DNA from: an uncultured Latescibacterota bacterium
GTDB lineage: Bacteria > Latescibacterota > UBA2968
DNA: 64,000 bases
Assembly: GCA_958295785.1 (NCBI GenBank)
Contig: OY282377.1
Location: 2,432,394 to 2,496,393, forward strand
Direction of reading: 5' to 3'
The number at the start of each line of letters is the position of its first letter. Positions within the stretch are counted from its first letter, which is position 1. Position numbers and translations under genes: made by a program. Of this stretch, positions 50,843 through 56,174 are shown in pieces. The notes below the pieces were generated by a model. The model ran no database searches. It was given only the letters and a program-made list of their open reading frames with translations, and was not told the origin of the DNA.

Positions 50843-51157
50843 ATGGAAAAACAAAAGAAAAAACACCTCAAAGCTACCGGATGGCGTGTCGGTTCAGCGG
50901 AAGATTTTCTCGGACTGAGTGAAGGGGAAGCCCTGTACATCAACCTCAAGATCATGTTGAGCACGAAAGTGCGTCAATGCCGAAAGAGAAAAAAATTGAC
51001 CCAAACCCAACTGGCCCAACGCCTAAAATCCAGTCAGTCTCGCGTTGCCAAAATCGAAGCGGGCGACCCCTCTGTTTCTCTGGATTTATTGATCCGATCC
51101 TTGCTCAGCCTGGGCGTCACCAAATCCGACCTCTCTAAAATGCTTGTTGAAAACTAA
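50843..51157 (+). CDS. XRE-family antitoxin (HigA-like), copy 1
   Basis: 104 residues. A helix-turn-helix of the XRE type (TQTQLAQRLKSSQSRVAKIE) sits at about 50-85. It differs from copy 2 at 51812 by only a few residues (KATGW versus EAAGW, INLK versus IDLK). Its toxin partner is truncated, so this copy is an orphan antitoxin that could still neutralise the intact toxin. Confidence 0.85.
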   Translation: MEKQKKKHLKATGWRVGSAEDFLGLSEGEALYINLKIMLSTKVRQCRKRKKLTQTQLAQRLKSSQSRVAKIEAGDPSVSLDLLIRSLLSLGVTKSDLSKMLVEN

Positions 51158-51377: not shown

Positions 51378-51472
51378 ATCAGATCGGATTGGAAGGATGA
51401 GAGAGATGAACGCAGATGAAAGACCAATCAAGTCCTTGTTTGACATATATCGCATTTGACATATATTTTGTT

Positions 51473-51808
51473 ATGAGTCCTCATGACAAACCTCTAGTAT
51501 GGCTTCACGGACAAATCAAGACGCCTCCATTTTCTTTATTGGCGAGACTCGAAGCAGGTTTTCTCCTGCGAAGACTTCAAGCTGGCGAAATGATCTCCAT
51601 GCCTCACTCTAGACCCATGCCCTCCATTGGAACGCATTGTTACGAATTGAGGATTCGAGATCGGAATAAGACCTGGCGAATCATCTATCGCATCGATCCA
51701 GATGCCATTGTCATAACGGAAGTTTTTCAAAAAAGGACTCGTCAAACGCCCCAAAGAATTATTGATATTTGCCAGAAACGCCTACAACACTACGATTCAA
51801 TTGGATGA
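51473..51808 (+). CDS. HigB/Gp49-like toxin (RelE superfamily)
   Basis: 111 residues from ATG 51473 (MSPHDKPLVWLHGQIKTPPF). It matches the phage-derived Gp49-like HigB family: DKPLxWLHGxIKTPPFS, EAGFLLRRLQAGEMISMPHS, RPMPSIGTHCYELRIRDRN, WRIIYRIDPDAIVITEVFQK. Such toxins cleave mRNA on the ribosome. Toxin first, antitoxin second, four bases apart, the usual HigBA order. Confidence 0.9.
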   Translation: MSPHDKPLVWLHGQIKTPPFSLLARLEAGFLLRRLQAGEMISMPHSRPMPSIGTHCYELRIRDRNKTWRIIYRIDPDAIVITEVFQKRTRQTPQRIIDICQKRLQHYDSIG

Positions 51809-51811
51809 CTT

Positions 51812-52126
51812 ATGGAAAAACAAAAGAAAAAACACCTCGAAGCTGCCGGATGGCGTGTCGGTTCAGCGGAAGATTTTCTCGGACTGAGTGAAGGGGAAGC
51901 CCTGTACATTGACCTCAAGATCATGTTGAGCACGAAAGTGCGTCAATGCCGAAAGAGAAAAAAATTGACCCAAACCCAACTGGCCCAACGCCTAAAATCC
52001 AGTCAGTCTCGCGTTGCCAAAATCGAAGCGGGCGACCCCTCTGTTTCTCTGGATTTATTGATCCGATCCTTGCTCAGCCTGGGCGTCACCAAATCCGACC
52101 TCTCTAAAATGCTTGTTGAAAACTAA
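51812..52126 (+). CDS. XRE-family antitoxin (HigA-like), copy 2
   Basis: 104 residues: MEKQKKKHLEAAGWRVGSAE, DFLGLSEGEALYIDLKIMLS, then the XRE helix-turn-helix LTQTQLAQRLKSSQSRVAKI. It is expected to bind the toxin at 51473 and repress its own promoter. Sequence downstream (CTTCAGGCGCGTGCGGG) marks the end of the duplicated unit. Confidence 0.9.
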   Translation: MEKQKKKHLEAAGWRVGSAEDFLGLSEGEALYIDLKIMLSTKVRQCRKRKKLTQTQLAQRLKSSQSRVAKIEAGDPSVSLDLLIRSLLSLGVTKSDLSKMLVEN

Positions 52127-55108: not shown

Positions 55109-55257
55109 GGCAAATCTCAAAATCGAAGTGCAAGTGCAGGGTATAAAACCGCCCGTTGAGTCGGTCGCGTCGCGATGGACTTTGTACGCGAAATTTACCC
55201 ATGACTTGGAGACCGGTCAAGGTCGCAATCAACTCTCCCTATATATTTCCCCCCTCC

Positions 55258-55335
55258 AATCCCGAATCCGCCTTGTTGGGCGAGCACGGGGGCATCGCCC
55301 CTACGTTTCTATCTTCGCATCTTGTCTTTGCCTTT
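55258..55335 (-). repeat. GC-rich dispersed repeat, copy 10 (inverted)
   Basis: GCCTTGTTGGGCGAGCACGG then GGGCATCGCCCCTACGTTTC and TATCTTCGCATCTTG. The complement of copy 2. Confidence 0.75.
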
Positions 55336-55369
55336 CATCCGCGTCATCCGCGCAATCTGCGATCAAAGG

Positions 55370-55398
55370 TTGACTTTCCCTTTCGCACGCGCTATATT
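55370..55398 (+). promoter_or_regulatory. Strong sigma-70-like promoter
   Basis: TTGACT (55370-55375), exactly 17 bases, TATATT (55393-55398). Predicted start near 55405, at the beginning of the candidate RNA. Confidence 0.65.
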
Positions 55399-55426
55399 GG
55401 AGTCACACAAGAAAGGAGGTGGTCGA

Positions 55427-55462
55427 ATGAGTGACATGACCAGTGGAGGTGACTGTCGTTAG
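55427..55462 (+). CDS. Eleven-residue ORF with a strong ribosome binding site
   Basis: AAAGGAGGTGGTCGA then ATG; encodes MSDMTSGGDCR and ends at TAG 55460-55462. The Shine-Dalgarno is the strongest in the window, out of proportion for so short a peptide, which suggests a leader peptide or a ribosome-binding regulatory site. Confidence 0.45.
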   Translation: MSDMTSGGDCR

Positions 55463-55597
55463 GTGCGCCCGCCAGGAGCGGAAACAACATCTCAAATGGT
55501 AGCGCGCCTGGCAATCCAACACAGTCATCGAACGGTTTGTTATCTGCCACACCGGCGATTTTTGATGATCGCGAGGCAGAAACGCCGTCAGACGAAG

Positions 55598-55650
55598 CGC
55601 CGCACGGAGATGGGCCGATTTTTCGACATCCGCCGCGCGGCGTTTTTTTT
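55598..55650 (+). terminator. Terminator at the end of the candidate RNA
   Basis: CGCCGC (55598-55603) can pair with GCGGCG (55637-55642) and GATG (55609-55612) with CATC nearby; the self-complementary CGCCGCGCGGCG (55631-55642) offers an alternative fold. Eight T follow (55643-55650). Confidence 0.6.
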
Positions 55651-55664
55651 GCGGGCTTTCTAAC

Positions 55665-55692
55665 TTGACAAAATCGGATTATCCTGTACCTT
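55665..55692 (+). promoter_or_regulatory. Promoter of the rplM-rpsI-rpsB-tsf-frr operon
   Basis: Perfect -35 TTGACA (55665-55670), 16-base spacer, TACCTT (55687-55692), 50 bp before the rplM ATG. Confidence 0.6.
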
Positions 55693-55742
55693 CAAAAACT
55701 CAAATGACTTGCGATTTCAAAATTTGGAGAGGAATTGAAACA

Positions 55743-56174
55743 ATGATGACACCCAGTGCAAAAAAAGGTGAGGTTGAACAAGTCTGGTATGTCGCCGATG
55801 CAGAAGGCAAGGTGCTTGGGCGATTTGCCAGTGGCGTGGCTCGAATTTTGCGCGGCAAACACAAGCCCTTTTACACCCCCCACATCGACACGGGGGATCA
55901 GGTGGTGATTGTCAATGCCGAAAAAATTCAGGTCAAGGGCAATAACAAAGCCCGGCAAAAAATTTATACGAGTTACAGTGGGTATCCCGGCGGGCTCAAG
56001 AAGCAAACGCTGGAAGACGCGCTCGAAAAGCGACCCGCGTTTGTTCTCGAGCACGCAATTCGGGGCATGTTGCCCCACAACAAATTGGGGCGGCAGATGA
56101 TAAAAAAAGTCCGGATTTACGCCGGGCCAGAACACCCACACCAGGCTCAGTCTCCTGAGCCGATTGATTTGTAG
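55743..56174 (+). CDS. rplM: 50S ribosomal protein L13
   Basis: 143 residues from ATG 55743; the frame to 55665 overlaps the promoter. WYVADAEGKVLGRFASGVAR, ILRGKHKPFYTPHIDTGDQV, and the signature AIRGMLPHNKLGRQMIKKVR then IYAGPEHPHQAQ. Binds 23S rRNA early in 50S assembly. rpsI follows, the universal pair. Confidence 0.97.
   Translation: MMTPSAKKGEVEQVWYVADAEGKVLGRFASGVARILRGKHKPFYTPHIDTGDQVVIVNAEKIQVKGNNKARQKIYTSYSGYPGGLKKQTLEDALEKRPAFVLEHAIRGMLPHNKLGRQMIKKVRIYAGPEHPHQAQSPEPIDL

Follow-up and report, generated by a model that had tools for sequence, protein, structure and literature searches.

A small RNA gene related to Ms_IGR-5 in Latescibacterota, with an extended complement to the 16S rRNA tail and a conserved stop codon

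Among described RNAs, Ms_IGR-5 (RF02471) is listed in Rfam as "Actinobacteria sRNA". According to the available parts of the respective papers, it constitutes a separate sRNA transcription unit in S. avermitilis (PMC8780764), is detected by RNA-seq in S. lividans (PMC8079986), overlaps an M. smegmatis sRNA identified by RNA-seq (PMC10454040) and yields ribosome footprints in M. abscessus and M. smegmatis, and non-coding RNAs too can yield footprints (PMC4974804). No paper on its function was found in the open-licence literature. A second RNA, the Caulobacter sRNA CC2171 (RF01867), on which a literature search by title found nothing, resembles the RNA described here in its 5'-terminal GAAAGGAGGUGAUCC, which is fully complementary to the 16S tail, and in the start codon and terminator-like hairpin that follow, whereas its remaining sequence and structure differ and the alphaproteobacterial loci carry a 21-22-codon ORF. 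The CC2171 model gave no match at E<=10 in positions 55200-55800, and CC2171 is perhaps a separately named branch of the same RNA class. The case of 6S RNA offers an analogy, as it poses as the ideal substrate of RNA polymerase, one of the core machines; the logic of the RNA described here would be alike, with the ribosome as the target. In mRNAs of S. aureus, extension of the duplex between the Shine-Dalgarno (SD) sequence and 16S rRNA towards the start codon has been observed by cryo-EM; within the available part of that source these are ordinary mRNA starts, whereas in the present element the extended SD stands at the 5' end of a structured RNA that is a unit by itself (PMC13009471).

The window, that is the whole analysed stretch of 64,000 nucleotides from an uncultured Latescibacterota bacterium (contig OY282377.1), carries at positions 55370-55650 what is, as read from sequence comparison, a real, conserved and self-contained small-RNA gene and a divergent Latescibacterota relative of Ms_IGR-5, although the window copy falls under the Rfam cut-off. 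Its predicted RNA has in common with Ms_IGR-5 the 5' ACAC with the extended SD, the segment GAGGUGGCUG, the stem holding the stop codon, the 3' box and the terminator, and differs from it by an added hairpin P3, by a different frame of the conserved segment and by the phylum (Table 1). RF02471 matches the window copy with 38.3 bits (E 3.3e-7 in a search of 601 bases), below its gathering score of 45 bits. The same model matches 21 of 41 relatives, all of them in the order of the organism itself (21/21 there), with the gathering score reached by one of the 41 genomes (G013, same family, 46.6 bits) and the other 20 matching genomes lying below, and in the Zixibacteriota phylum it has matches in 31 of 98 genomes, above the cut-off in 17. 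Conversely, the covariance model R1, built from Latescibacterota alone, finds at 33.9 bits a Nocardia copy that had been reached via the Rfam consensus and scores 142.7 bits to RF02471, and at E<0.05 it recovers 27 of the 35 loci given to it, namely all 26 Zixibacteriota loci among them and locus L023. Because RF02471 and R1 match reciprocally, the RNAs of Latescibacterota, Zixibacteriota and Nocardia are homologous. The earlier note had called the element undescribed; this does not hold for the kind of RNA, since a relative exists in Rfam, and stands in so far as that family is of unknown function.

Within the order, a DNA search located the element in all 20 other genomes (10 of the same genus, 4 of the same family and 6 of the same order), and R1 matched all 21 genomes at E<1e-21, so that the covariance search in relatives proposed at the outset finds both sequence and pairing conserved. 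R1 matched one more genome of the phylum weakly (G021, E 1e-3) and gave 0 matches in the remaining 42 of the 64 Latescibacterota genomes. Zixibacteriota, Acidobacteriota and Actinomycetota likewise have homologues of this anatomy. The exact pattern running from SD1 to SD2 was found in 7 of 247 Acidobacteriota genomes (control 0), whose SD1 and SD2 cores are conserved by selection as the pattern fixed them, while stop, ORF, P2 and 3' box were free. One of 251 Chloroflexota genomes matched, at a site within a coding frame (L137) that is read as coincidence, and viral contigs gave 0 matches to the actinobacterial 5' pattern. Anatomy was compared in 57 copies: 21 from Latescibacterota, 27 from Zixibacteriota, 7 from Acidobacteriota and 2 from Actinomycetota, one of which sits in a phage-labelled record. 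The Zixibacteriota copies were read from 26 of the 31 matches in that phylum, five not having been fetched, and from L079, a genome outside that sample; the 3'-box alignment and the R1 test used 26 of these 27 (without L078), and the strand-permutation tests took 56 of the 57 copies (without L134). Left out were a 37-nt fragment (L002), L137, the compact variant L023/L057, L043, which is cut by a contig end, and the same-genome duplicates L040, L044, L045, L065, L070 and L073. A copy of Ms_IGR-5 with 76.9 bits (L139, 2501-2676 of MT835602.1), likewise reached via the Rfam consensus, comes from the human gut, in a record whose label, Bacteriophage sp., is unverified; the contig may be bacterial and mislabelled, or the copy may be a carried one or lie in the flank of a provirus.

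Table 1. Features of the predicted small-RNA locus and of the neighbouring promoter, in window coordinates
Feature	Position	Strand	Basis
sigma-70 promoter: -35 TTGACT, 17-nt spacer, -10 TATATT	55370..55398	+	promoter scan; hexamers same in 20/21 order copies
predicted small RNA, ~246 nt, 5' end ACACAAG	55405..55650	+	promoter position; RF02471 match begins on same base
SD1: 15 contiguous nt complementary to mature 16S 3' tail, one G.U	55410..55424	+	own 16S tail GGATCACCTCCTTTCT
weak SD1 hairpin UGGUC/GACCA, AUG in loop	55420..55442	+	100% of cells paired in 15 Latescibacterota rows
mini-ORF MSDMTSGGDCR, ATG at 55427, TAG stop	55427..55462	+	ORF list; 21 order copies compared
SD2, internal Shine-Dalgarno-like GGAGGTGACTG	55445..55455	+	second minimum of 16S-tail duplex energy, -15.6
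P1 5' strand GGUGACUGU	55448..55456	+	fold, alignment
P2 5' strand GUUAGGUGCGC, contains stop codon	55458..55468	+	fold; covariation in other phyla
P2 3' strand GCGCGCCUGGC	55502..55512	+	fold, alignment
3' box AATCCAACACAGTCATCG, with P1 3' strand 55521-55529 inside	55513..55530	+	alignment
P3 hairpin, Latescibacterota only, arms ~55539-55548 and 55575-55580	55533..55588	+	columns 138-206, most double changes of the RNA
intrinsic terminator, long stem-loop and eight T	55597..55650	+	sequence, fold, stem columns 222-230/262-270 with double changes, hairpin check
-35 (TTGACA) of separate rplM promoter; neighbour outside the RNA	55665..55670	+	sequence

The earlier note had proposed a self-contained unit with promoter, SD, ORF, paired segments and terminator, a description that sequence, fold and relatives bear out. 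Its promoter, called well formed, indeed matches 10 of 12 positions, with hexamers identical in all 20 Latescibacterota copies that have sufficient upstream sequence, the 21st (L013) being cut there by a contig end; promoter-like sites numbered 4 against 0.9 expected in the 2.2-kb stretch scanned. The predicted 5' end lies 7 nt past the -10 box. Folding of the unit gives z = -3.3, equalled by 1 of 200 shuffles. The terminator with eight T was likewise confirmed, its stem starting at 55597 and its T run occupying 55643-55650, and only the distance to the rplM promoter, given as 15 bp, needs correction, as the gap from the terminator end to the -35 box at 55665 measures 14 nt. A simple scan did not detect this terminator because it permits loops of up to 8 only. 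A hairpin-based check limited to 45 nt gave matches in 3 of 21 Latescibacterota, 25 of 27 Zixibacteriota and 3 of 7 Acidobacteriota copies, where one of the three Latescibacterota matches (L022) is the P3 region and some short ones in the other phyla are not the true terminator; the longer stem of Latescibacterota is visible in the alignment. ARAGORN found 0 tmRNA or tRNA genes in the window, and such an identity was rejected; weak matches of the element to microRNA, CRISPR-repeat and other Rfam families were dismissed as chance.

SD1 (AGAAAGGAGGTGGTC) has its sole exact match in the window at this site, and 2 matches with up to 2 mismatches compare with 0.06 expected. Its duplex with the 16S tail of the organism itself reaches -26.4 kcal/mol against -11.9 kcal/mol for the best of 44 long ORFs, in agreement with the statement that this is the strongest SD of the window, and among 1153 window mini-ORFs of 6-15 codons it alone lies at or below -22 kcal/mol. 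Taking the 16S tail from the 16S gene of one genome each of Latescibacterota, Zixibacteriota and Acidobacteriota, SD1 pairs with 15-16 contiguous nt of it in 56 of the 57 copies and with 13 in the remaining one; the three bases past GGAGGUG appear as GUC, AUC, GUU or AUU and pair with the tail in 57/57. The hairpin around SD1 showed no covariation across the 15 Latescibacterota rows. Further downstream, an SD2 segment GAGGUGRCU[GC] is followed by a stop codon after 4-5 nt in 57/57 copies, with TAG in 51, TAA in 3 and TGA in 3, and the ORF is therefore not a chance one. An in-frame ATG, GTG or TTG start is found in 54 of the 57, and in the other three, all among the 27 Zixibacteriota copies, an in-frame ATT is visible. 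The simplest reading of a stop codon that is kept everywhere is that arrival of the ribosome at it matters, and the spacing of SD2 could fit the holding of a ribosome with the stop codon in its A site.

The claim of paired segments also found support, in different phyla for the two core stems. For P2, own strands outpair swapped ones in 48/48 distinct rows across all phyla with 0 of 2000 permutations as good, a test confounded by phylogeny; within Zixibacteriota own strands are better in 25 of 27 (0/2000 permutations) and within Acidobacteriota in 6 of 6 (17/2000), and single pairs in Zixibacteriota have changed on both sides, e.g. A-U to G-C and C-G to G-C. P2 within Latescibacterota exhibits no covariation (1403/2000 permutations as good), which is uninformative because the core is nearly invariant there. 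P1 joins SD2 to the 3' box. Its own strands are matched by 0 of 2000 permutations in Latescibacterota, by 63 in Zixibacteriota, where the signal is weak, and by 1327 in Acidobacteriota, where covariation is absent; its sole double change in the Latescibacterota rows, G-C to A-U, is in the window copy itself. Double changes affect 20 of 62 pairs, mostly in P3 and the terminator, outside the core. The Rfam model of Ms_IGR-5 differs from P1 as drawn here: it pairs SD1 with GCUGCC and keeps the 3' box single-stranded. Pairs of this SD1/GCUGCC helix are flagged as non-standard in the NC line for L139, whose fold forms a 9-pair P1 with altered sequence. The 3' box follows the pattern AAUC..A.CAG...A.CG and is succeeded soon after by the terminator in Zixibacteriota and Acidobacteriota, and in Latescibacterota only past the additional P3 hairpin. 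In Zixibacteriota, GUUGGG in P2 can pair with either an upstream strand or CCCAAC of the 3' box, giving mutually exclusive folds; the latter pairing forms 6/6 pairs in 25 of 26 rows and suggests a switch, and it was left out of the evidence because its strands are almost invariant and Latescibacterota do not have the pairing.

The best explanation, to which we assign a probability of roughly 0.55, is that the element is a stand-alone sRNA, a relative of Ms_IGR-5, acting as a ribosome-gated regulatory RNA in the following manner. Its own strong promoter would drive synthesis of the RNA and its own terminator would end it, as predicted from sequence and in keeping with the transcripts reported for actinobacterial homologues. 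The 5' end, antisense to nearly all of the 16S 3' tail, would capture 30S subunits, which would then translate the 11-codon ORF, in line with the ribosome footprints reported for mycobacterial Ms_IGR-5. Once the stop codon is reached, the distance from SD2 to the last sense codon, then in the P site, is 7-8 nt, the SD spacing used by start sites, and by this geometry the tail may re-anneal and hold the ribosome. A ribosome so held would unwind P1 and P2, the stems by which the region of SD2 and the stop codon is otherwise paired with downstream sequence, and would thus free the 3' box. Speculatively, the RNA might thereby signal ribosome availability to some target or protein; the terminator is present in either state, and no read-out is visible on the RNA itself. 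Such a ribosome-sensing role is plausible, the more so because the extended 16S complement occurs together with a stop codon in a covarying stem.

Other explanations account for parts of these observations. In 19 of the 21 order copies the element stands directly upstream of rplM, and the earlier note had accordingly considered a leader of that gene; a leader or attenuator of rplM-rpsI that senses ribosomes or L13 is nevertheless highly improbable, since the RNA has its own terminator and rplM a separate promoter, another gene lies downstream in 2 of the 21, and the other phyla have diverse neighbours. Among 25 Zixibacteriota loci with a called ORF, the downstream one is on the opposite strand in 9, and the neighbours, taken as raw calls of at least 100 codons and not curated, look unrelated. 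No Rfam family matches at gathering score in the window, which dismisses a known r-protein leader such as the L13 leader of rplM. Transcription attenuation in general is likewise disfavoured, as there is no constant co-oriented downstream gene and neighbours and strands vary. No antiterminator pairing was seen in the folds inspected. The two further options of the earlier note, a stand-alone small RNA and a dual-function RNA, are both favoured by conserved sequence and pairing, own promoter and terminator, and changing neighbours. A structured mRNA whose 11-residue peptide acts by itself would explain why the frame up to the stop is open in all copies and why peptide ends are constant, as xEV[AT]xx before the stop in 36/36 Zixibacteriota, Acidobacteriota and Actinomycetota copies and TSGG[GD]C[RS] before the stop in 21/21 from Latescibacterota, where the reported 11-residue ORF is retained throughout as M[STIN][DEIK]xTSGG[GD]C[RS]. 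However, the three former phyla read the shared segment as GAG GUG RCU, giving EV[AT], whereas Latescibacterota have one extra base before it and one fewer after it, so that the frame is shifted and an unrelated peptide, SGG[GD]C, results; moreover, GAG GUG is without a synonymous change in 27/27 Zixibacteriota copies. Because Latescibacterota read the same nucleotides in another frame, the comparison of peptide and RNA conservation that had been suggested points to the RNA as the conserved entity, the peptide sequence is unlikely to be the product, and a peptide gene is an improbable account.

We consider it similarly improbable that the element is a classic sRNA acting in trans by base pairing, with ribosome loading serving only to protect the RNA. 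The box AAUCCCAACAG, almost invariant in Zixibacteriota and Acidobacteriota, could serve as a seed, but it differs in Latescibacterota and Actinomycetota and is partly paired in P1. The main rival, in our judgement unlikely, is a decoy that binds and parks small subunits through its antisense to the 16S tail, with ORF and stems only tuning residence, much as 6S RNA parks RNA polymerase. The 16S complement extending well beyond a usual SD in four phyla, its wobble-compatible changes with pairing kept at the three extension positions, a duplex with the 16S tail of about -24 kcal/mol and the presence of a second 16S-pairing site would all suit a decoy; a search by title or abstract found no 30S-sequestering sRNA in the literature. 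Against it, a plain decoy needs neither a conserved stop codon, here of three types, nor a covarying stem around it, and in S. aureus normal initiation can proceed with a start-proximal SD extension, according to the part of the source that concerns it (PMC13009471).

Should the ribosome-gated reading apply beyond Latescibacterota, the RNA might belong to a cross-phylum class of ribosome-reading sRNAs, defined by 16S-tail antisense, an 11-codon ORF, an SD2 hold at the stop codon and a stem flip, which would be a counterpart of 6S RNA and include Ms_IGR-5 and perhaps CC2171; we advance this tentatively and regard it as doubtful. The comparison in any case gives an unexplained actinobacterial "non-coding" sRNA a defined anatomy common to at least four phyla and a candidate role in binding and reading ribosomes. 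If this role is right, a dedicated RNA for reporting or buffering the free capacity of ribosomes would exist in several phyla.

Several further loci were noted. Three alphaproteobacterial contigs (L042, L050 and L063) have pattern matches that score 34.9-39.5 bits with CC2171 (cut-off 75), and they begin with the same 16S-tail complement followed by a 21-22-codon ORF, MSSITNEGIS.... In G021, from another Latescibacterota family, L023/L057 carries ACACAAGAAAGGAGGTGGTTGGATG and an ORF MIATTRRWVV; a second SD and the UGA stop codon are buried in the 17-bp hairpin that comes next, and further downstream the same strand holds an ORF of 266 codons. From its sequence the locus may be either a compact variant or a convergent form. 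The genome of the organism itself holds a 37-nt, 97% copy of the 5' part of the RNA (L002 1501-1537, C1:4613936-4613972), which starts 3 nt ahead of the predicted 5' end, runs to codon 4 and sits between two repeat copies; by its sequence it looks like a truncated recent duplicate. Elsewhere in the window, two near-identical 104-codon ORFs (MEKQKKKHL..., 50843-51157 and 51812-52126), which on inspection look helix-turn-helix-like, occur within 1 kb and next to an ORF at 51416-51808 that we take to be RelE/HigB-like.
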